Shown here in pieces: positions 17,103-46,240 of a stretch of 64,000 nt of DNA. The DNA is from Desulfovibrio sp. GTDB lineage: Bacteria > Desulfobacterota > Desulfovibrionia > Desulfovibrionales > Desulfovibrionaceae. How positions within the stretch are numbered: position 1 is the first letter of the stretch; the number at the start of each line of letters is the position of its first letter. The notes under the pieces are model-generated. The model was not told the DNA's origin. It worked only from the letters and a program-made list of their open reading frames with translations, and ran no database searches. The DNA is taken from positions 1-64,000 of the forward strand of contig JAISLI010000038.1 in assembly GCA_031291035.1 (NCBI GenBank), written 5' to 3'. Position numbers and translations under genes: made by a program.

Positions 17103-17975
<873 letters not shown>

Positions 17976-17996
17976 AGGCACAGGGAGGAAAACGCG

Positions 17997-18323
17997 ATGA
18001 TCATGGTACGGGCAATCGTCCGCCCGGAAAAGACGAATGACGTGTTAAGCGAGCTGTTAAGCGCGGGTTTCGCCGCCGTTACCAAAATGGATGTTTTCGG
18101 CCGGGGGAAACAGAAAGGCATCCGGATAGGAGAAATGCAGTATGACGAGATTCCCAAACAGATGCTCATGATGGTGGTAAGCGATGAGGACAAGAATGAT
18201 CTGGTCAAGATCATCCTGCGCGTCGCCAGAACGGGAGAAAAAGGCCATTTCGGCGATGGGCGCATCTTCGTTTCGCCCGTCGTCGAAAGCTGGACCATCA
18301 GTACCGGCGCCAAAGGCTTGTAG
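17997..18323 (+). CDS. nifI1: P-II family nitrogen regulator NifI1
   Basis: PII-like IVRPEKTNDVLSELLSAGFAAVTKMDVFGRGKQKG, placed between nifH and nifI2. Confidence 0.92.
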   Translation: MIMVRAIVRPEKTNDVLSELLSAGFAAVTKMDVFGRGKQKGIRIGEMQYDEIPKQMLMMVVSDEDKNDLVKIILRVARTGEKGHFGDGRIFVSPVVESWTISTGAKGL

Positions 18324-18334
18324 GGGAATATGCG

Positions 18335-18709
18335 ATGAAAGAAGTAGTGGCCATAGTGCGTTCCAATATGGTGGGTGCGACAAAACAGGCCCTCGCCAAT
18401 GCGGGATTTCCGGCATTCAACTGTGTGCCGTGCCTCGGCAGGGGCAAAAAGATGCTCAATCCGGAACTCGTCGAACTGATCATGAAAAACGGCGAACTGC
18501 CCCGGACGGCGGCGGGAGAATCCATGACCGAAGCGACGCGGCTCATTCCCAAACGCATGTTCTCCTTGGTGGTCAACGACGAGGGAGTCGGCAGAGCGGT
18601 TGAGGCCATCATAGGGGCCAACTCGCACGGGCGCCCCGGCGACGGGAAGATTTTCGTTCTCCCGGTGATGGAATCCTACATCATTCGCCTGGGCGAACAG
18701 GGCGAATAG
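18335..18709 (+). CDS. nifI2: P-II family nitrogen regulator NifI2
   Basis: KEVVAIVRSNMVGATKQALANAGFPAFNCVPCLGRGKK...GDGKIFVLPV. Confidence 0.92.
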   Translation: MKEVVAIVRSNMVGATKQALANAGFPAFNCVPCLGRGKKMLNPELVELIMKNGELPRTAAGESMTEATRLIPKRMFSLVVNDEGVGRAVEAIIGANSHGRPGDGKIFVLPVMESYIIRLGEQGE

Positions 18710-18738
18710 CAACAGCATTTCCCCAAGGAGGGCGCGAC

Positions 18739-20331
18739 ATGGACCCCAAAGCGCATGTGCTTGAGCGGTATCACGCGAAGGTTTTCAAAAACCGGAAAGA
18801 ACATATCCTGCGCATCGACCATGCGGAAGAGGCGCAGACCATAACGGCCAACACCCGCACCATACCCGGCATCATCACCAACCGCGGCTGTTGTTACGCG
18901 GGGTGCAAGGGGGTTGTGCTCGGCCCGCTGAAGGATGTGGCTGTCATCACCCACGGCCCCATCGGGTGCGGTTTCTACAGTTGGGGCACCCGCCGCAACA
19001 AGGCCGCGCCCGACGAGGAAGGCAAAAACTTTACCCAGTATTGTTTTTCAACCGATATGCAGGAACCGGACATTGTCTTCGGCGGCGACAAAAAATTGCG
19101 TGCCGCCATTGACGAAGTATACTCCCTCTTCTCGCCGGGCAGCATCATGATCTGTTCCACCTGCCCCGTAGGGCTTATCGGAGACGACATCCACGCCGTG
19201 GCGGCCGAAGCAGAAAAAAAATACGGCATTCCCGTCGTGGCCTACAGTTGCGAAGGATACAAGGGAGTTAGCCAAAGCGCCGGGCATCATATCGCCAACA
19301 ACGGCCTGATGAAACGCATTATCGGCGCCGACGACGCTCCACCCGCGACAAAGTATTCCATCAATCTGCTCGGCGAATACAACATCGGCGGCGACGGATG
19401 GGAGGTGGAGCGCATCCTCAAACGGTGCGGCTACGAGATCGTTTCGATATTCACGGGAGACGGCAGTTGGAAAAAAATCGCCCGATCGCACATGGCGAAT
19501 CTGAACATCGTGCAATGCCACCGCTCCATCAATTACGTCGCGGAAATGATGAAGGAGAAGTACGGAGTGGACTGGCTCAAGGTCAACTTCATCGGCGTGG
19601 CGGCTGTTGCCGACTCCCTGCGCCGCATGGCGAAGTATTTCGGCGATGCGGAGCTGAGCCGGCGGACAGAAGAGGTCATCGCTGACGAATCCGCCGCCAT
19701 AGCCGGGGAGATGGACTCCTGCAAAACGAAACTGGACGGAAAAACGGCCGCCCTCTTTGTGGGCGGCAGCCGTGCGCACCATTACATGCATCTTCTGGCG
19801 GAACTCGGCGTGCGCACGGTGCTGACGGGACACGAATTCGGACATCGCGACGATTACGAGGGACGCAAGGTTCTCCCTTTCATCAAGGAGGACGCCGACA
19901 ACAAAAATATCGAGCATCTCCATGTCGAACCTGATCAGAAGAAATACCGCGCCTTTCTCTCCCAAGAAGAATACGGCAGGCTGAAGGCGGAAATCGGGCT
20001 TGAGGACTATGCGGGAATGATCCGCGATATGGAAAACGGCTCCTATGTCGTCGATGATCTCAACCATTTTGAAACCGAACAGTTTCTCAAATGCCTGCAA
20101 CCCGATATTTTCTTTTCGGGCATCAAGGACAAATACATGTTGCAGAAAGCGGGCGTTCTCTCCCGCCAGTTGCACAGTTACGACTACAGCGGTCCCTATG
20201 CCGGCTATACCGGCGCGATACGGTTCGGCCATGACGTAATTATGGGTCTGTATACCCCGGCCTGGCGGTTTGTTACGCCGCCGTGGAGAAATATTTCTTC
20301 GCTTGAAGGAAGCTTCGGAGGAGACATCTGA
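18739..20331 (+). CDS. nifD: nitrogenase MoFe protein alpha chain
   Basis: GPIGCGFYSWGTRRNK, CPVGLIGDDI, SCEGYKGVSQSAGHHIAN, NIVQCHRSINYVAEMM, SRQLHSYDYSGPYAG; cluster-ligand Cys and His conserved. Confidence 0.97.
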   Translation: MDPKAHVLERYHAKVFKNRKEHILRIDHAEEAQTITANTRTIPGIITNRGCCYAGCKGVVLGPLKDVAVITHGPIGCGFYSWGTRRNKAAPDEEGKNFTQYCFSTDMQEPDIVFGGDKKLRAAIDEVYSLFSPGSIMICSTCPVGLIGDDIHAVAAEAEKKYGIPVVAYSCEGYKGVSQSAGHHIANNGLMKRIIGADDAPPATKYSINLLGEYNIGGDGWEVERILKRCGYEIVSIFTGDGSWKKIARSHMANLNIVQCHRSINYVAEMMKEKYGVDWLKVNFIGVAAVADSLRRMAKYFGDAELSRRTEEVIADESAAIAGEMDSCKTKLDGKTAALFVGGSRAHHYMHLLAELGVRTVLTGHEFGHRDDYEGRKVLPFIKEDADNKNIEHLHVEPDQKKYRAFLSQEEYGRLKAEIGLEDYAGMIRDMENGSYVVDDLNHFETEQFLKCLQPDIFFSGIKDKYMLQKAGVLSRQLHSYDYSGPYAGYTGAIRFGHDVIMGLYTPAWRFVTPPWRNISSLEGSFGGDI

Positions 20332-21692
20332 TGCTTGACATGACGCCCAAGGAGCCTGCCGAACGCAAGGCCGTCACCATCAACCCCTGCAAGACCTGCC
20401 AGCCCGTGGGCGCCCTCTATTGCGCGCTCGGCGTTCACGGGTGCATGCCGCACAGCCACGGCAGCCAGGGGTGCGTATCCTACCATCGCACGATACTCTC
20501 CCGCCATTTCAAGGAACCCGCCATCGCATCAAGCAGTTCCTTCACCGAAGGCGCATCGGTCTTCGGCGGCGGCAGCAATCTCAAAACGGCCCTGCGCAAC
20601 GTGTTCGACATTTATCATCCCGACATTGTCGCCATTCACACCACCTGCCTCAGCGAAACCATAGGCGATGATCTCAACTCCTATCTTATGGAAACGACCA
20701 TTCCCGACGGCAAATACGTCGTGTACGCCAACACGCCGAGCTATGCCGGTTCGCATGTGACGGGATTCTCCGCCATGATGGCCGGGTTCATCCGCTTTCT
20801 GGCGGAAAAAGGCACGCCGAACGGCAGGACGGCGATATTTCCCGGCTTCGTCAACCCCGGCGACATCCGGGAATTGAAGCGCATCCTGCGCGTTTTCCGC
20901 GTGTCGCACATCATGTTTCCCGACCAGTGCGACGTGATGGACGCCCCCATGACAGGCGATTCCCGGATGTACCCCGACGGCGGCACGACCATCGAGGAGA
21001 TCAAGGCTCTCGGTTCTTGCGAACGGGTTCTGGCCCTCGGTGCGCTGGCCAGCGAAGAACCGGCCAACCAGTTGAAGCGCAAGTGCGGAGTTCCGTATTC
21101 TCTTCTTGATTCTCCCATCGGCATGGAGGCGACCGACGCTTTTATCATGGCCCTCTCGAGCCTCGGCGATGGAACCGTGCCGGAGGAAATAGAAAAGGAA
21201 CGCGGCCGACTCGTCGATTTTCTGCTCGACGCGCACCCTTATTTTCATGGGAAAAGCGCCGCCGTTTACGGCGACCCCGACACCGTGACCGGCATCACCC
21301 GACTTGTTCTCGAAATGGGCATGACGCCCAGATATGTGCTGACCGGAACCCCCGGCGAGGCGTTCGCCTCCTCCGTCCGAGCCCTGTTGGCCCAGTATGA
21401 CGCGCAAGGCTGCGAGGTCAGGGCCGGCGGAGATCTTTTTGAACTGCACCAGCGGATCAAAAACGAGCCCGTGGATGTCATGATCGGCACTTCCTACGGC
21501 AAACAGATCGCGCGGGCCGAAGACATTCCTCTCGTGCGGGCCGGATTTCCCGTTCTGGACAGGTACGGACACCCCTACCATCCCCTTGTCGGCTACAGGG
21601 GCACCATGCGCCTTGCGGAAATGATCGCCAACGCGCTCATGGACCGCAGAGACAGAGACTGCAAGGACGAAGATTTCGAACTGGTCATGTAA
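20331..21692 (+). CDS. nifK: nitrogenase MoFe protein beta chain
   Basis: INPCKTCQPVGALYCALGVHGCMPHSHGSQGCVSYHRTILSRHFKEPAIASSSSFTEGASVFGGGSNL. Confidence 0.97.
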   Translation: MLDMTPKEPAERKAVTINPCKTCQPVGALYCALGVHGCMPHSHGSQGCVSYHRTILSRHFKEPAIASSSSFTEGASVFGGGSNLKTALRNVFDIYHPDIVAIHTTCLSETIGDDLNSYLMETTIPDGKYVVYANTPSYAGSHVTGFSAMMAGFIRFLAEKGTPNGRTAIFPGFVNPGDIRELKRILRVFRVSHIMFPDQCDVMDAPMTGDSRMYPDGGTTIEEIKALGSCERVLALGALASEEPANQLKRKCGVPYSLLDSPIGMEATDAFIMALSSLGDGTVPEEIEKERGRLVDFLLDAHPYFHGKSAAVYGDPDTVTGITRLVLEMGMTPRYVLTGTPGEAFASSVRALLAQYDAQGCEVRAGGDLFELHQRIKNEPVDVMIGTSYGKQIARAEDIPLVRAGFPVLDRYGHPYHPLVGYRGTMRLAEMIANALMDRRDRDCKDEDFELVM

Positions 21693-21778
21693 TTCTGATT
21701 CCGGATAAAAATTGAGCCCCGCAATTTTTATCCGGAAATGGACTAATGCGTAAGGAAGCGCAGAGCGGAGAAACAGAC

Positions 21779-23122
21779 ATGCAAACGCAAATTCTTGACG
21801 AACGAGAAAAATCCATACTGCGCAAAGAACAAAGGTGTCGCGGCGGCGGCATCAACTGCGAATCCGCAAGCGTGTCCGGCGCGGTCAGCCAGCGCGCCTG
21901 CGTCTATTGCGGGGCGCGGGTTGTCCTGAACCCCATCACCGACGCCTTTCACATCGTACACGGCCCCATCGGCTGCGCAAGCTACACCTGGGACATTCGC
22001 GGCAGCCTGACCAGCGGTTCAACGCTCTTTCGCAACGCCTTTTCCACCGACCTGCAAGAGCGGGACATCATCTTCGGCGGGGCGGAAAAACTGGCAGCCG
22101 CCATTGACGAGGTCATGCAAACATACAAGCCGAAGCTGATTTTTGTATACGCCACCTGTATCGTCGGGGTCATCGGCGACGATGTCGACGCCGTGTGCCG
22201 CAAAGCCGAAGAGCAATACGGCAACCGCGTCATTCCGGTCAAGGCGCCCGGTTTCGCCGGTCACAAGGCCGAGGGATACCGCATGGCCTGCAATGCTCTT
22301 CTTGCCCTCCTCAAACCCCATGCCGCTTCGACAAGGCGGCTCGGCATCAATATTCTCGGCGACTACAATCTCGCGGGCGAAATGTGGATCATCAAGAACT
22401 ATATGCGTGAAATCGGCGTTCCGGTCATCGGCTCCTTCACGGGCGACGCCTGCTGCGAAACGCTCCTTCTGGCTCCGCAGGCGTTTTTGAATGTCGTGCA
22501 GTGCGCGGGTTCCATGCTGTATCTTGCTCAACGGATGGAAGAGCAATTCGGCATCCCGTGGATCAAGGCGAGCTTTTTCGGCATAGAGGATACCACAAAC
22601 GCCATCATGAACATAGCGGAACTTTCCGGCGATAAAGGCGCGCGCGCCCGGGCCGCCGCCTTTACCGGACGCGAGTCGTCCCTGGCGGCCAGGGACGTTG
22701 AGCGCTACAAAGCTCACTTTGCCGGGAAAAAGGCCGCCATCTTCGTCGGCGGAGGGTTTAAAGCCATTTCGCTCATCCGCCAGTTCACCGAAATGGGCAT
22801 CGAAACCGTCATCGTCGGCACCCAGACGGGGAAGGCGGACGAATATGAAGTTATCGCCGGTCTGGTGAACAGCGACGCGGTAATTCTGGACGACGCCAAC
22901 CCCGCGGAACTGGAAGCCTTTATGAAGGAAAAAGGCGCCGACATCCTTGTCGGCGGGGTCAAGGAACGCCCGCTGGCCTACAAGCTCGGCATGGCCTTTT
23001 GCGACCATAACCACGAGCGCAAACATCCCTTGGCCGGGTATGAAGGCGTGCGTAATTTCACCAAGGAAATCAACCTGTCGGTCAACAGCCCGGTCTGGCG
23101 GTATATGTATCCGGCTTTTTAG
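21779..23122 (+). CDS. nifE: FeMo-cofactor scaffold protein NifE
   Basis: SGAVSQRACVYCGARVVLNPITDAFHIVHGPIGCASYTWDIRGS... Confidence 0.95.
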   Translation: MQTQILDEREKSILRKEQRCRGGGINCESASVSGAVSQRACVYCGARVVLNPITDAFHIVHGPIGCASYTWDIRGSLTSGSTLFRNAFSTDLQERDIIFGGAEKLAAAIDEVMQTYKPKLIFVYATCIVGVIGDDVDAVCRKAEEQYGNRVIPVKAPGFAGHKAEGYRMACNALLALLKPHAASTRRLGINILGDYNLAGEMWIIKNYMREIGVPVIGSFTGDACCETLLLAPQAFLNVVQCAGSMLYLAQRMEEQFGIPWIKASFFGIEDTTNAIMNIAELSGDKGARARAAAFTGRESSLAARDVERYKAHFAGKKAAIFVGGGFKAISLIRQFTEMGIETVIVGTQTGKADEYEVIAGLVNSDAVILDDANPAELEAFMKEKGADILVGGVKERPLAYKLGMAFCDHNHERKHPLAGYEGVRNFTKEINLSVNSPVWRYMYPAF

Positions 23123-23145
23123 GGAAACACCGCGGGAGACGCCTT

Positions 23146-25536
23146 ATGAACGCCAACATCGTCAATCTGACTACAAACCCCTGCAAAATGTGCATGCCCA
23201 TGGGCGCGGTCACCGCGTTCTACGGCATACGGAAGTGCATGAGCATTCTGCACGGTTCTCAGGGGTGCAGCACATATATCCGCCGGCATATGGCGACCCA
23301 TTATAATGAACCGGTCGACATCGCCTCATCGTCCCTGACGGAAGAAGGGACTGTCTTCGGCGGGACGAAAAACCTGTTGAAAGGACTCGCGAATCTGATC
23401 AAACTGTATGAACCGGAAGTGATCGGCGTTTCCACCACCTGTCTTGCCGAAACCATCGGCGAAGATGTGGACGCCATAATCAAAAGCTTTTACGCGGCAA
23501 CCCCCGGCTGCGCCGTCAAAATCATCAACGTGGCGGCGGCCGGGTACGGGGGCACGCAGTTTGAGGGGTATTTCCGCGCGCTCCACGCGACAGTCAGCCA
23601 GACGCAAATGGACGCGACGCCCCACAACGGCGTGAACGTCATCACCGGACCGATCAGCCCCGCCGACACGCGGGCGCTCAAGGCGCTGCTTGCTTCCACC
23701 GGTATTGCTTCCGTGCTTCTGCCCGACCTTTCGCAAAACCTTGACGGCATACATGCCGAAACCTACAAGCGTCTGCCGGGAGGCGGCACGCCCCTGAGCG
23801 CCGTTTCCGCCATGGCCGGAGCGCACGCCACGCTGGAGCTTTCCCCCTTCTGTCCCGACGAATATTCGCCCGGCGCATATCTTGAAGCGACTTACGGAGT
23901 GCCGCTCACGCGCCTTGCCCTGCCTGTTGGTCTGCGCGATACGGATGCCTTTCTGGCCGCTCTGGTCGATCTCGGAGCGGTTATTCCCCAAAGCGTCGGG
24001 GAGGAACGTGGCCGGTACCTTGACGCCATGGTTGACTCCCACAAATACAACGCGGCGGCGCGGGCGGCCATTTTCGGCGAACCGGATTTTGTCCACAGCC
24101 TGACACGGTTCGCCTGCGAAAACGGCATCATCCCCGTGCTCGCGGCCGCGGGCACGCGGAGTCCGCGGCTTGCCGACGCCCTCAAGGACGAAATGGCGGC
24201 AGCGGCCGAGCGTCAGTTTGTAGAGGAATACGACATTGTCGATGGCGCGGACTTTGAAAGGATTGACGCGTATGTCGAAAAAAATCGGGCCAACATCCTC
24301 ATCGGCAATTCCGACGCCCGCCGTATCGCCGAAAAACGGCATCTGCCGCTTGTGCGCCGCGCTTTTCCCATACACGACCGGGTAGGGGGACAACGCCGGC
24401 GGATGCTTCTGTATGAAGGTTCGCTTTCCCTGTTGGACGAAATTGCCAACGCCATGCTGGCCCATACCGAAGAAACCTTCCGGGGCGCGCTCTTTCACGA
24501 CTTGTGCCATGACGGACAAAAGAAAAAAAACGCGCGGACGAAAGATGCGGACGGCCTTGCCGGTTGCGGAGAGCGGTCCCTGTCGGTAACGACTGCGGCA
24601 AGGGGCGCCGCGCGTAAAAACGCCGCCAGAACGGCGACGCATCCCTGCTTTTCTTACGGCGCGTGCAAGACGGCGGCGCGCATCCACCTTCCCGTCGCCT
24701 ACGGTTGCAACATCGGTTGCCGCTACTGTCTGCGAAAATACGATTGTCCCAATGAAAGCCGCCCCGGAGTAAGCTCCATCCTTCTTTCGCCCGAAGAAGC
24801 CTTTGGCCGTTTCAAAGCGGCCAGGGAAATGTTTTCCCACCTCATGGTGGTCGGCATCGCCGGTCCGGGTGACGCCCTGGCCAATTTTTCGCGAACGGAA
24901 AGCACCTTGCGCATGATCCGCGAATATGATCCTGACATCACCTTCTGTCTGTCAACCAACGGACTGATGCTGCCCGTCCATGCCTCCCGGCTGCTGGAAC
25001 TGGGGGTATCGCACGTTACCGTCACCATCAATGCCGTCGACCCGGCCATCGGCGCAAAAATCTACCGCTTCGTCAACTTCATGGGCACGCGCCATGAAGG
25101 GGAAACAGCGGCAGCCATTCTGCTCGCCAACCAGTTGAGCGGCCTGAAATTCCTTACCGGCAACGGCGTCGTCTGCAAGGTGAATATCGTTCTGCTGAAA
25201 GGCGTCAACGATCATCATATTGAGAGAGTGGTCGCCACAGCGCGCAGTCTTGGCGCTTCCCTGACGAACATCATGCGGCTTATTCCCGTTCCGGGCAGCG
25301 ACTTCGCCTGTTTGCCCCCTGTCAGCAACGGGGAACTCACGAAGATTCGCGGAATCTGCGAAAAACACCTGTCCCAGATGCGCCACTGCAAGCACTGCCG
25401 CGCCGATGCCGCCGGTCTGCTGGATCATGATGAATCCATCGTCTTTCGAACCGGTGAACAGAAAAAAATCCCCGCCCGCCCACCCCGCGCGCGGCTTGAG
25501 TGTGCCGAAGCCCCGAAAAACGGTGCGGCGCCATGA
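23146..25536 (+). CDS. nifN-B: NifN-NifB fusion protein
   Basis: N-terminal NifN (NPCKMCMPMGAVTAFYGIRKCMSILHGSQGCSTYIRRH) fused to radical-SAM NifB (HLPVAYGCNIGCRYCLRKYDCPNESRPG, CxxxCxxC). Confidence 0.95.
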   Translation: MNANIVNLTTNPCKMCMPMGAVTAFYGIRKCMSILHGSQGCSTYIRRHMATHYNEPVDIASSSLTEEGTVFGGTKNLLKGLANLIKLYEPEVIGVSTTCLAETIGEDVDAIIKSFYAATPGCAVKIINVAAAGYGGTQFEGYFRALHATVSQTQMDATPHNGVNVITGPISPADTRALKALLASTGIASVLLPDLSQNLDGIHAETYKRLPGGGTPLSAVSAMAGAHATLELSPFCPDEYSPGAYLEATYGVPLTRLALPVGLRDTDAFLAALVDLGAVIPQSVGEERGRYLDAMVDSHKYNAAARAAIFGEPDFVHSLTRFACENGIIPVLAAAGTRSPRLADALKDEMAAAAERQFVEEYDIVDGADFERIDAYVEKNRANILIGNSDARRIAEKRHLPLVRRAFPIHDRVGGQRRRMLLYEGSLSLLDEIANAMLAHTEETFRGALFHDLCHDGQKKKNARTKDADGLAGCGERSLSVTTAARGAARKNAARTATHPCFSYGACKTAARIHLPVAYGCNIGCRYCLRKYDCPNESRPGVSSILLSPEEAFGRFKAAREMFSHLMVVGIAGPGDALANFSRTESTLRMIREYDPDITFCLSTNGLMLPVHASRLLELGVSHVTVTINAVDPAIGAKIYRFVNFMGTRHEGETAAAILLANQLSGLKFLTGNGVVCKVNIVLLKGVNDHHIERVVATARSLGASLTNIMRLIPVPGSDFACLPPVSNGELTKIRGICEKHLSQMRHCKHCRADAAGLLDHDESIVFRTGEQKKIPARPPRARLECAEAPKNGAAP

Positions 25537-26558
25537 TCTCCCGCATGCGCATCCTCGACGGCACTTTGTTGGCGCTGGAGGCCGAAGGCATGCGCCCGAC
25601 AGCGGCGCGCGCCGCCGGGTGGCGGCGTGCTGTCGCCGGGTGCGGGATCGATTCGCTGGAAACGCTTCTGCCTCCGGCGGGCGCAGGCGATTCTCCGGAC
25701 CGGGCTTCGCCCGTAGCGGAGTCATCCTCTCCCCCGGGAAACGCGGCATCCCGCCGAAGCGCCGCCCCGGAACGGCCCCCGAGTCTGTCGGAACTGATTG
25801 CGCGCGTATTGCCGACTACGGTCGTGCCCTCGGTGTCCGCGCTTGCGAATCTTGCGTCGGGCGCTTTCCCCCAAAGTGGATGGCACTGCATATACGGCCT
25901 GGGCGACGCGCTTTTTGCAGACCGGAAAACCCTTGCCCGGAGCATCGACAGCCTGTCTGAGGGAAGGGAGGCGCTTCTTGCGCCGTGTTTCACCAACGAA
26001 CGCGGATGCGCCACAGCGCTGGCGGTGGAATGGCTGTTGGGCGGAGAAGACCGCGCCGCCCTTGTCTCTTTTGCCGGATGCGGCGGCCTGGCGGCGTTGG
26101 AAGAGGTTCTCGCGGCCTTGCTCGTTCATGGCGGCCTGCCCGCCGCCGATCTACGGGGCTTGCCCGAATTGACGGATCGGTATCGCCGTATGGGAGGAGG
26201 GCCGATCCCGCCCGCCAAAGCCGTTATCGGTGAGGCAATTTTTTCCGTGGAATCGGGCATTCATGTGGACGGCTTATGGAAATCTCCCGATCTTTATGAG
26301 CTTTTTCCGCCGGAGATTGTCGGGCGGGAACGCCGTATCATCATGGGCAAGCATTCGGGCAAACGAGCGGTATTGGTCAAATGCGGCGCTCTCGGCCTGC
26401 CGGTCACGGCCGATCTTGCGGAGCGCGTACTGCAAAAGGTGAAAGAAGAGAGCGCTAGGCGGAAAACAAGTCTCTGCGATACGGACTTTATCGCACTGTA
26501 CTCCACATGCCGCGCCGGGAAGGATGAAAAGGAAGAAGGCGGCCGTGCGGTTTTGTAA
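25533..26558 (+). CDS. homocitrate synthase omega (C-terminal) subunit, NifV-omega-like
   Basis: Carries VIGEAIFSVESGIHVDGLWKSPDLYELFPPEIVGRERRIIMGKHSGKRAV (C-terminal part of NifV/LeuA family) without the catalytic N-terminal barrel. Confidence 0.85.
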   Translation: MISRMRILDGTLLALEAEGMRPTAARAAGWRRAVAGCGIDSLETLLPPAGAGDSPDRASPVAESSSPPGNAASRRSAAPERPPSLSELIARVLPTTVVPSVSALANLASGAFPQSGWHCIYGLGDALFADRKTLARSIDSLSEGREALLAPCFTNERGCATALAVEWLLGGEDRAALVSFAGCGGLAALEEVLAALLVHGGLPAADLRGLPELTDRYRRMGGGPIPPAKAVIGEAIFSVESGIHVDGLWKSPDLYELFPPEIVGRERRIIMGKHSGKRAVLVKCGALGLPVTADLAERVLQKVKEESARRKTSLCDTDFIALYSTCRAGKDEKEEGGRAVL

Positions 26559-27357
26559 AATTGTCGACACCACCCTGCGCGACGGAGAGCAGGCTCCGGG
26601 GCATGCCTTTTCCCTTGACGACAAGGTTTTTCTCGCCTCCCTTCTTGACGGGGCGGGGGTGTACCAGATTGAAGCCGGGGTTCCCGCCATGGGGAGAGAC
26701 GAACAGGACGCCGTTTGCGCTGTAAAAGACGCGTGCAAAACAGCTGTTGTTTCCACATGGAACAGGCTGACCGAGGAGGACGTCCGGGCCTCCGTCGCAT
26801 GCCACCCCGATATCATTCATCTTTGTCTGCCCGTGTCGGAGCGGCACATCACGCGCAAGCTCCGTACGACGCAGGCGGCTTTGCTGAGGCAATTTTCCCG
26901 CGTGGCGGAATATGCTGCCGGGAGGGGGTACCGCGTAACAGCGGGCTTTGAGGACGCATCCCGCGCGGAGGTCCCTTTCCTGCTTCAAGCGGCCGAAACG
27001 GCAAAACGGCACGGAATTGAGCGCATCCGTCTGAGCGACACCCTGGGAATGCTGCGTCCCTCCTCCGCCGCGCTCCTCGTGCGCACGGCGCGTGAAGTCG
27101 GCTTGCCCGTGGAGATGCACGCCCACAATGATCTCGGCATGGCGCTCGCCAACTCCGCGATCGCCGTCCTGGCCGGGGCGGGATTTATTGACACGACGCT
27201 TCTCGGTATTGGGGAACGTGCGGGAAACTGTGGCCTTGGCGCTTTTGTCGCCGCCTGCCGCGAGTATACCGCAATATCGCCCTTGCAGGCTCGCAAGGCG
27301 GAGCGCCTTGCCCTGCCGCTGCTTTCGCGTTGCCGGCAAAGAAAATTTTTCACCTGA
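26524..27357 (+). CDS. homocitrate synthase alpha (catalytic barrel) subunit, NifV-alpha-like
   Basis: IVDTTLRDGEQAPGHAFSLDDKVFLASLLDGAGVYQIEAGVPAMG...MHAHNDLGMALANS; ends after the barrel. Confidence 0.88.
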   Translation: MKRKKAAVRFCKIVDTTLRDGEQAPGHAFSLDDKVFLASLLDGAGVYQIEAGVPAMGRDEQDAVCAVKDACKTAVVSTWNRLTEEDVRASVACHPDIIHLCLPVSERHITRKLRTTQAALLRQFSRVAEYAAGRGYRVTAGFEDASRAEVPFLLQAAETAKRHGIERIRLSDTLGMLRPSSAALLVRTAREVGLPVEMHAHNDLGMALANSAIAVLAGAGFIDTTLLGIGERAGNCGLGAFVAACREYTAISPLQARKAERLALPLLSRCRQRKFFT

Positions 27358-43306: not shown

Positions 43307-43375
43307 ATGGAAAAATTCGCTAATCTGATAGCTATCTCTCGTTTATTTTTGAATTTTGTTGTTGGATTGGCGCGC

Positions 43376-44128
43376 ATGAGAACATTTTTTCCGTACGGGA
43401 TGCGACGAATCGGGGCCTTGAATCTTTCCGTCGCCATGTGTTGTTTTTTCGTCTTGTGCCCCGCGTCCGCATTCGCCGCGCAGGCCGCCGGCGAGGGGAC
43501 GGTTTCCGCTGAAAACGAGAGGCCGGTTTCCGTCGATATTGTGGACGCGCCTCCGGCGGATCCCGCTTCGAGGGTGAAAATTTTTGGTACGGTGGAATTC
43601 AAGCGTCCCTTGTCGTCCCTGCCCGGCTGGCTCAACGTCTTGAGCCGCAACAAAGGCGATCCCGTTTTTACCGACGGCCGTCGCCTTGCCAAAAATGTTA
43701 CCTGGGATCAGTTCAGGGAACAGGCCAAAAAGTTTCAGGGACTTGACCTGTTGCGTTTTGTGACCAAATTTTGGAACTCCTGGCCTTACAAGGAGGACAT
43801 CGTCAACTGGGGAGTGGAGGACTATTGGGAAATCCCCGCGGAATTTCTGCAGCGTTCCGGTGATTGCGAGGATTACGCCATTATCAAATATTTTACGCTC
43901 AAGGAATTGGGCATTCCGCCCGAGGATATGCGTATCGTGGTGGTGCGCGACACAATCCGCAATCTCGGTCACGCTGTACTGATTGTCTATATGCAAAACG
44001 ACGCCTATGTGCTTGACAATCTCAGTAACGTCGTTTTGTCGAACACGCGTTTCCGCCATTACAGCCCGCAGTATTCCGTCAACGAATTCGGGCGGTGGGC
44101 GCATCTTAAGGGCCGACAGGCGAAGTAG
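43376..44128 (+). CDS. LapG-like periplasmic transglutaminase-fold cysteine protease
   Basis: LQRSGDCEDYAIIKYFTLKELGIPPEDMRIVVVRDTIRNLGHAVLIVYMQNDAYVLDNLS: Cys-His-Asp triad of the BTLCP family. Confidence 0.85.
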   Translation: MRTFFPYGMRRIGALNLSVAMCCFFVLCPASAFAAQAAGEGTVSAENERPVSVDIVDAPPADPASRVKIFGTVEFKRPLSSLPGWLNVLSRNKGDPVFTDGRRLAKNVTWDQFREQAKKFQGLDLLRFVTKFWNSWPYKEDIVNWGVEDYWEIPAEFLQRSGDCEDYAIIKYFTLKELGIPPEDMRIVVVRDTIRNLGHAVLIVYMQNDAYVLDNLSNVVLSNTRFRHYSPQYSVNEFGRWAHLKGRQAK

Positions 44129-44134
44129 GTACGT

Positions 44135-46240
44135 ATGGAATTGCAGAACACAGGTGCGGAGGCCATCGCAAGCCAGTACCGCATGAAAAAAACAGTTGTT
44201 GTGACGGCGGGCGCGTTGCTGTTTGTGGTGCTCACGGTGATCGCCGGGGTACTCTGCAACCTTCAGTTCAAATACAGTACCCGGGAGACGCTCTCAACCC
44301 AGCGCGACATGCAGCAGGTCTGGGTGGACAAATCCTTGGAAGCCATCCGTTCCTGGCGCGGTGTTCTTGTCGAGCAGGCGCGCGCCATCAGCACCTCGGA
44401 AATGTTCCGCCTGTTCGCCGTGGATGTGAAATCCCTCGGCCCGGACGGACCGGCGCGCGTCTCCGCCCCTGGCGCGTCCCGCAGTGAGGACAAGGCCGTC
44501 TCTTCCCTGGCGGAGCAGCTTGCCTACATGCGGGACATATTGCTTGATACCGTGCGGCGCAGACAATGGATATCCGCGCGTGTCCTTACGGAAGGAGGCG
44601 AGGCGCTCATAACCCCCGAATTTGCCGAGCCCCTGCTTCCCGTCCAGACAGAGCTTGTCAAGCGGGCGGCCGCCGCCAGAACGACGGTTTTCGGCCCTGT
44701 GCGCAGGCAGGACGATGTTGTGATGATGGATGTGGCGGACCCTTTATATGAGATGCCCGGCAAGGATGAGCCCAGGCCCGTCGCCTTTTTGCTCGTCACC
44801 CTGCCCATGGAAAAAAATCTGTCGGGTTTTCTGGCGCAAAGTCCGGATCAGAACCGCGAATTTCTGCCGTGCATTCTCAATCGCGGCCCGCGGGGCACAG
44901 AAGCCGTACTGTGGCGTGACGGCGCCATACGCATCGTGCGCGCCGGTTTTGAACCTGACGCCGACTTGTCCCTGCCCTTCAGGAAGCGTCAGCTTGTCGG
45001 CGGCGGCGGAGAGGCGTACTCGTTGGGAAGCCGCCTGACGGAGATGGACTGGTGCGTCATGCTTGAAGTGCCGGCCGCTGTGGTGGACGGCCTGCTGGAA
45101 AGCCGGAGGCGCCAGATATACGGTCTGGGCGTGCTCGGCAGCGTCGGGGCGGCTCTTTTGCTGGCCTTTGCCTGGGCAAGCATTGTAAGCCGTTCACACA
45201 GGGCCACGTCCAGGCATTTCCAGCGCCTCTATACGGTCATACGGCAGCAGAAACTTATGCTGGACAGCATCAACGCCTCTCTGCAGGTGGGGCTCCTGCT
45301 TGTGGACGGCGAAGGCCATGTGCAGGTGTGCAACCCCGCTTTCTGCCAGATTTCCGGAAAAACTGAGGAAGACCTGGCCGGCCTCCCCCTGGACGGAGCA
45401 TTGCCTTCACAGGCCGCCGAAGACATGCGCGCCTGCATGAATTGTGTGGCGGGCGTCGGGGAGATGGCCAGCATTGAAATTTCTCTGGATTCTCATGACG
45501 GCCTTCGCCTGTACCGCGTCACGCTGTTCCCCTTTGAGGACCAGCAGGATGCCGGGGAGAGCAAAACGGGGGGATGCGTCGGGATATTCCAGGACATTAC
45601 GGAATTCCGCCGCAAGGCAGAGGAAGCCCGCAAGCGGCAGGGCAACCTCATTGCCGCGCTCGTGCGCGCCATTGAAAGCGTGGATGAGAATCTGATCGGG
45701 CATTCCCAAAAGATGGAACGTGTTGTGGAATTGCTTTCCGCGCAGATGGATCTGGAGGAAAAGGACAGGGCGACCCTCCGTCTTGCCGCGCGTCTCTGCC
45801 AGATCGGCAAAATTTTCGTGCCGCGCAATCTGCTTACCAAAATCGGCAAGCTCACGGCCGAGGAACAGCAGGAGCTCATGCGCGCGCCGGAATACGCCTA
45901 TAATGCCTTGCGCGATTTGCAGTTCGACCTGCCCGTGCCCGAGGCGGTATACCAGATGGGTGAGCGCATGGACGGCACAGGCAGTCCGCAACGCCTTGAA
46001 GGCGAACAAATTGTGACCAACGCCCGCATCCTCGCCGTTGTCAACGCCTTTTGCGCCATGACCAGCGCGCGTTCCTACCGCGCCGGCATGAACCCGGCGC
46101 AGGCCATTGAACTGCTTGCCAGGAATCCGGGTTTTGACGCGAAAGTGGTGGAAAATCTCGCGGCGCTGTCGATTGAGGAACTCCGGAACGCCCTGAATGC
46201 CGGGGAGGGCGATAACGGAGGCGGGGGCAATGACGTGTAA
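44135..46240 (+). CDS. membrane sensor protein with periplasmic domain, PAS and degenerate HD-GYP domain
   Basis: Two TM segments flanking a periplasmic region; PAS (LQVGLLLVDGEGHVQVCNPAFCQISGKTEEDLAG); HD-GYP-like GHSQKMERV...LRLAARLCQIGKIFVP...MDGTGSPQRLEGEQI...ILAVVNAFCAMTSARSYR. Confidence 0.8.
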   Translation: MELQNTGAEAIASQYRMKKTVVVTAGALLFVVLTVIAGVLCNLQFKYSTRETLSTQRDMQQVWVDKSLEAIRSWRGVLVEQARAISTSEMFRLFAVDVKSLGPDGPARVSAPGASRSEDKAVSSLAEQLAYMRDILLDTVRRRQWISARVLTEGGEALITPEFAEPLLPVQTELVKRAAAARTTVFGPVRRQDDVVMMDVADPLYEMPGKDEPRPVAFLLVTLPMEKNLSGFLAQSPDQNREFLPCILNRGPRGTEAVLWRDGAIRIVRAGFEPDADLSLPFRKRQLVGGGGEAYSLGSRLTEMDWCVMLEVPAAVVDGLLESRRRQIYGLGVLGSVGAALLLAFAWASIVSRSHRATSRHFQRLYTVIRQQKLMLDSINASLQVGLLLVDGEGHVQVCNPAFCQISGKTEEDLAGLPLDGALPSQAAEDMRACMNCVAGVGEMASIEISLDSHDGLRLYRVTLFPFEDQQDAGESKTGGCVGIFQDITEFRRKAEEARKRQGNLIAALVRAIESVDENLIGHSQKMERVVELLSAQMDLEEKDRATLRLAARLCQIGKIFVPRNLLTKIGKLTAEEQQELMRAPEYAYNALRDLQFDLPVPEAVYQMGERMDGTGSPQRLEGEQIVTNARILAVVNAFCAMTSARSYRAGMNPAQAIELLARNPGFDAKVVENLAALSIEELRNALNAGEGDNGGGGNDV

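Follow-up and report, generated by a model that had tools for sequence, protein, structure and literature searches.

What keeps a LapG-type protease in check when the gene directly behind it encodes, instead of LapD, a membrane protein with an HD-GYP domain stripped of its metal ligands? This question is raised by two adjoining genes in a 64,000-nucleotide stretch of Desulfovibrio sp. DNA (assembly GCA_031291035.1, contig JAISLI010000038.1, positions 1 to 64,000 of the forward strand), referred to below as the window. Its contig, C38, is one of 51 in a genome of 2.04 Mb with a completeness of 99.97%. Besides the pair, the window holds a compact set of nitrogenase genes at 17142-25533, with nifH, nifD, nifK and nifE together with one for a 796 aa fusion of NifN and NifB. 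At 25557-27354, homocitrate synthase is divided over two ORFs that overlap; the first resembles the C-terminal half of NifV and the second the N-terminal half, an order reversed relative to the whole protein.

The initial annotation had proposed that a catalytically dead HD-GYP receptor could replace LapD as the inside-out switch for the protease. This idea is right in kind, and it is already published for Desulfovibrio vulgaris, where it was shown for the relatives DvhG and DvhD (PMC13090378, PMC11784015). The window pair is a divergent relative of DvhG/DvhD (BfsG/BfsD) and a new member of the published Dvh/Bfs system. We put at roughly 87% the probability that it represents the protease and the receptor of an adhesin-retention switch of the Dvh/Bfs type. 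The features of the pair, in window positions, are as follows.

43307..44128, + strand: dvhG-like gene, BTLCP/LapG-type periplasmic cysteine protease (ORF, Peptidase_C93, LapG structure matches, alignment of 21 relatives)
43859..43876, + strand: GDCEDY with the catalytic C187 (codon 43865-43867), flanked by D186/E188 (sequence, alignment)
44135..46240, + strand: dvhD-like gene, inner-membrane receptor of TM-dCache-TM-PAS-degenerate HD-GYP layout, 701 aa (ORF, domain profiles, structure matches)
44297..45109, + strand: periplasmic dCache domain, about residues 55-325 (phmmer to 9rc2, Foldseek)
45278..45613, + strand: PAS domain, residues 382-493 (PAS_4, E=7.8e-11)
45659..46147, + strand: degenerate HD-GYP domain, residues 509-671 (HD_5, E=3.2e-41; 9rbz structure match)
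45797..45802, + strand: Cys-Gln (C555-Q556) replacing the metal-binding His-Asp (sequence, alignment of relatives)
45953..45964, + strand: QMGE replacing the HHE motif (sequence, alignment of relatives)

The protease ORF encodes 273 aa from its first ATG (43307) and 250 aa from the ATG at 43376, which corresponds to M24. Read from 43376, the protein opens with a typical signal peptide, MRTFFPYGMRRIGALNLSVAMCCFFVLCPASAFA, ending in ASAFA-A, which is followed by a short linker and the catalytic core. It matches Peptidase_C93/BTLCP in a domain profile search (E=5.5e-20) and the LapG structures 4fgo (E=2e-21) and 4u65 (E=3.5e-20) in a sequence search of solved structures, and with 98.4 bits it stays under the curated cut-off of 320 bits of the NCBIfam LapG equivalog NF045674. 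The Cys-His-Asp positions that had been read as intact are C187 in GDCEDY, H222 in LGHAVL and D237 in VLDNL, and they are kept across 21 protease relatives, in the alignment of which G185, D186, C187, E188, D189 and H222 are invariant and D237 is nearly so. The flanking residues D186 and E188 correspond to D316 and E318 of D. vulgaris DvhG, its calcium-binding pair (PMC13090378).

The receptor ATG (44135) follows the protease stop codon (44126-44128) after a gap of 6 bp. Both ORFs, the gap and the TM-periplasmic-TM-PAS-HD-GYP order given in the initial annotation were confirmed, with two hydrophobic segments flanking the periplasmic domain. The HD-GYP domain is degenerate as described there, carrying CQ and QMGE at the metal sites and retaining DGTGSP and the ARSYR tail; the tyrosine of GYP is lost too (GSP). 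According to the alignment columns, from which the motif states of all receptors were taken, HD occurs at the metal site in 0 of 75 aligned receptor relatives, most of which have Q there, and the HHE position reads M-G in 22 of the 28 pair-type receptors, to which that of the window belongs, and M-N in most receptors of classic operons. The best matches among solved structures are those of DvhD, namely 9rc0 (PAS/HD-GYP, E=1e-51) and 9rbz (HD-GYP with c-di-GMP, E=2.7e-40), and residues 60-316 match the periplasmic part of DvhD, 9rc2, with E=3e-15 in phmmer. An AlphaFold2 model built on a 29-row alignment has a pLDDT of 82.8 and a whole-chain pTM of 0.46, the arrangement of the domains not being predicted by it. 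Foldseek with this model again gave 9rc0, 9rbz and 9rc2 as top matches, with 44% identity and a TMt of 0.85 between the HD-GYP domain and the c-di-GMP-bound 9rbz, and a TMt of 0.83 between the dCache domain and 9rc2; the KinD sensor domain 4jgr was also matched by the latter domain. A LapD-like Trp loop, suggested earlier as something to look for, is not expected, the periplasmic domain being a dCache domain by both sequence and fold matches to 9rc2. Since the top sequence and fold matches of the receptor are DvhD structures, the pair is identified as DvhG/DvhD of the Dvh (Bfs) system.

The Dvh/Bfs system of D. vulgaris was reconstituted in 2024 and solved in 2026 (PMC13090378, Nat Commun 2026), and DVU1019/1020 are described likewise in PMC11784015. 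DvhD, with SQ in place of HD and MN in place of HH, binds c-di-GMP with an effective Kd of ~99 nM, does not hydrolyse it with any ion tested, and has its stalk helices splayed by it (PMC13090378). In P. fluorescens lacking LapD and LapG, DvhD controls DvhG in a c-di-GMP-dependent manner (Karbelkar et al. PNAS 2024, as cited in PMC13090378). Even for D. vulgaris itself, the physical contact between DvhD and DvhG rests on a model (PMC13090378). The system is stated by the same authors to be present also in D. piger, D. desulfuricans and D. fairfieldensis (PMC13090378), and a D. piger record (L076) is among the relatives found here.

How regularly do the two genes occur together? The protease is present in 26 of 37 same-genus genomes, and it lies next to the receptor gene in 24 of these 26, the exceptions being G016 and G030; the pair also recurs beyond the genus. 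A receptor is found in 26/26 genomes with the protease versus 1/11 without it (Fisher p=3e-8), an exporter in 24/26 versus 1/11 (p=2e-6) and an adhesin in 21/26 versus 0/11 (p=5e-6), all three values being uncorrected for kinship. The lone receptor without a protease belongs to a 63% complete genome, and when only genomes of 90% completeness or more are counted, receptor and exporter both separate without exception (19/19 versus 0/8). Because adjacency is kept in 24 of 26 genomes and HD at the metal site in none of the 75 relatives, the pair is not a chance neighbourhood. Most protease-adjacent receptors have one PAS domain; there is none in G012, G024 and G032 (579-617 aa), and several stand in tandem in G005, G015 and G035 (954-1093 aa; variants at loci L018, L021, L024, L058, L059 and L060).

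Desulfuromonadales and Alphaproteobacteria commonly show the order ABC-MFP-protease-HD-GYP receptor, which is seen in other Proteobacteria as well; exporter, protease and receptor form one operon in the classic loci, in other genera and in one same-genus genome, G033, and they are neighbours in G006, G007, G019 and G025. A single T1SS-dvhG-dvhD operon is not present at the window locus, where the pair sits between nadE and rfbC-like genes, with the exporter on a different contig (C19). The single-operon order is a feature of arrangement, not a functional requirement. Many alphaproteobacterial BTLCP genes are flanked on their other side by a gene for an HD-GYP protein that is transcribed divergently (L099, L106, L107, L112, L117, L123, L142 and others), and several of these loci also have a classic exporter-protease-receptor operon nearby.

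The remaining parts of the system, and also a second BTLCP protease, were located on other contigs of the source genome.

Contig C19, L008:6551-8851: T1SS ABC transporter
Contig C19, L008:8858-10714: T1SS membrane-fusion protein (MFP)
Contig C19, L008:10714-12882: DvhD2, a second degenerate HD-GYP receptor, directly behind the ABC and MFP genes and overlapping the MFP stop
Contig C1, L009:17140-17793: second BTLCP protease, 218 aa, with a signal peptide, beside an RNase H gene and with no receptor adjoining

The retention_LapA model NF033682 (NCBIfam) has no match in this genome. A search with six aligned retention domains, taken from loci linked to an exporter, did find two retention-domain adhesins in it, an ORF of ~3,540 residues on C34 and one of 817 residues on C10, and PDLAPAAG stands behind the retention domain in both; each of the two thus has a [TAP]AAG site, in line with the BTLCP-cleavable (TAAG-type) adhesin anticipated earlier. 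Across 27 such ORFs, [TAPSV]AAG directly follows the retention domain in 24, versus 2 of 158 equal windows elsewhere in those ORFs. This count was made with a retention-domain HMM devoid of the cleavage columns; it still leans towards the motif, the six seeds having been picked for AAG and the loci fetched with the full alignment, and it is supportive, not independent. The 201 aa retention-domain ORFs of G005 and G015 (L174, L175) have no AAG site and may be relics.

DvhD2 closes the exporter operon in this and most same-genus genomes, where it occupies the position of DvhG-DvhD in classic operons, with no protease adjoining. Nearly all these same-genus genomes have a single BTLCP copy. The second protease on C1 was considered as a general partner of DvhD2 and rejected, its type occurring only in this genome and its nearest relative (G001), and DvhD2 in most genomes; G028 has other extra BTLCP copies. 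In a tree of HD-GYP domains, made by a quick method and with weak deep forks, a branch with an SH-aLRT of 90 sets the 21 exporter-linked receptors apart from the others, D. vulgaris DvhD groups with the classic receptors, and the pair-type receptors including that of the window form a long, well-supported branch. Because G007 and G025 have protease, exporter and adhesin with a pair-type receptor only, the pair-type receptor seems able to suffice alone, which weighs against its being a mere helper of DvhD2.

The c-di-GMP pocket differs between these groups (numbering of D. vulgaris DvhD). In DvhD, Y523, Y621 and K582 contact the ribose and a phosphodiester of c-di-GMP, and K520/R569 form a bridging site; the mutants R650A, Y652A/R653A and P567T lose the c-di-GMP effects, and mutation of K520 has a slight effect, the other residues lost in the window receptor not being among those mutated (PMC13090378). 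In the window receptor, Y523 is aligned with N, Y621 with S, K582 with Q, K520 with V and R569 with N, and L577, M646, R650, Y652, R653 and P567 are kept; E668 has no confident alignment. Position 523 is Y or F in 22/22 classic receptors and Y in 20/21 DvhD2 receptors versus 4/28 pair-type receptors, 22 of which have N; Y621 is found in 22/22, 19/21 and 1/28, respectively, eight of the pair-type entries being alignment gaps. K582 is mostly Q in the pair-type receptors, which mostly keep L577, M646, R650, R653, P567 and also Y652 (W in four). Since Y523, Y621, K582 and K520/R569 are replaced, the ligand of the window receptor, or its affinity, may differ from that of DvhD. A loss of binding cannot be concluded, because R650, Y652/R653 and P567, on which the effects of c-di-GMP depend in the mutants, are intact.

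These differences allow a second reading, namely that one LapG-type protease serves under two dead HD-GYP receptors, DvhD2, encoded with the exporter, keeping the c-di-GMP pocket, and the window receptor (DvhD1), encoded with the protease and lacking several contacts, responding with another affinity or to another input such as a PAS or dCache ligand or another nucleotide. Both would converge on the protease, perhaps as heterodimers, and adhesin release would integrate two signals. The place of DvhD2 beside ABC-MFP in this genome and most relatives, the grouping of the exporter-linked receptors on one side of a tree branch, the unequal retention of Y523 and Y621 and the single BTLCP of nearly all these genomes speak for it. 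However, G007 and G025 manage with a pair-type receptor only, the mutation-critical R650, Y652, R653 and P567 are kept in the window receptor, and among the lost residues only K520 was mutated in D. vulgaris DvhD, with its slight effect. We regard this division of labour as a tentative proposal, with the odds rather against it.

Far less probable is that the window receptor is an active c-di-GMP phosphodiesterase merely lying beside the protease. HD_5 and NosR-type PDE models do match it, but HD has become CQ and HH has become MG, no relative has HD, D. vulgaris DvhD with its SQ and MN is devoid of hydrolysis (PMC13090378), and the adjacency to the protease is conserved. The presence of a LapG-type protease might equally call for a canonical LapD elsewhere in the genome, but this is very improbable, given that the LapD_MoxY_N domain (PF16448) was not found in the own genome by a profile search with E up to 10, that the genus has only weak MoxY-like matches, none of them beside a BTLCP, and that a LapD hidden on a missing contig is unlikely at such completeness. 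A true LapD domain does lie beside a BTLCP in two genomes only, both from another family of the order, and therefore the two types of receptor replace each other.

We thus return to the window pair as a Dvh/Bfs-type switch. To what is seen in the genome (family membership, loss of the catalytic residues, an exporter with cleavable adhesins, absence of LapD, co-occurrence) a mechanism can be added by analogy with the D. vulgaris relative, for which cleavage, c-di-GMP binding, lack of hydrolysis and c-di-GMP-dependent control are reported (PMC13090378; Karbelkar et al. as cited there). The T1SS encoded on the other contig would export the two adhesins, whose N-terminal retention domain would keep them in the outer membrane, and the periplasmic protease would cut at PAAG just behind this domain, releasing the adhesin and the cell. 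The receptor, with its HD-GYP metal ligands lost, would be a sensor and not an enzyme. Its ligand, probably c-di-GMP as in DvhD, would bind the cytoplasmic part and reshape the dimer through the PAS stalk and the membrane helices. In the ligand-bound state the dCache domain would restrain the protease and the adhesin would stay; when the ligand falls, the protease would be freed and the adhesin cut loose.

The sequences confirm the DvhG-DvhD solution, in which a repurposed HD-GYP phosphodiesterase takes the place of LapD, as the common adhesin switch in this Desulfovibrio genus, to which gut species such as D. piger are related. If the two-receptor reading were true, a single protease would respond to two receptors that differ in their ligand pockets, a situation that to our knowledge is not described for Lap systems. 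The natural loss of Y523 and Y621 makes it directly testable which contacts are needed by an HD-GYP sensor without catalytic activity. The separation of the pair from the exporter, DvhD2 and the lost tyrosines are not discussed in the available portions of the Dvh/Bfs literature.

Compared with active HD-GYP phosphodiesterases (PmGH, 4mcw/4mdz; PA4781, 4r8z), the window receptor shares the HD-GYP fold and lacks the HD and HH metal ligands. With LapD-LapG of Pseudomonas fluorescens, the pair has in common the homologous protease core (4u65) and the principle of an inner-membrane receptor, its c-di-GMP-enzyme domain dead, that governs a BTLCP protease cleaving adhesins behind a retention module; the receptor itself is unrelated to LapD, having dCache, PAS and HD-GYP instead of LapD_MoxY_N, HAMP and GGDEF-EAL. 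The closest counterpart is the Dvh/Bfs system of D. vulgaris Hildenborough (DvhG/BfsG, DVU1019; DvhD/BfsD, DVU1020; 9RBZ, 9RC0, 9RC2), with the same BTLCP protease followed by a TM-dCache-TM-PAS-degenerate HD-GYP receptor, HD replaced (by SQ in D. vulgaris and CQ in the window) and HH too (by MN and MG, respectively), a T1SS, retention-domain adhesins with a [TAP]AAG site and no LapD. Different from DvhG, which has a TM anchor and a linker of ~180 aa, the window protease has a signal peptide and a short linker. Different from DvhD, the window receptor sits on a separate long branch with Y523, K582, Y621, K520 and R569 replaced. The window pair, moreover, stands apart from the exporter and the adhesins, and its genome has a second receptor inside the exporter operon.
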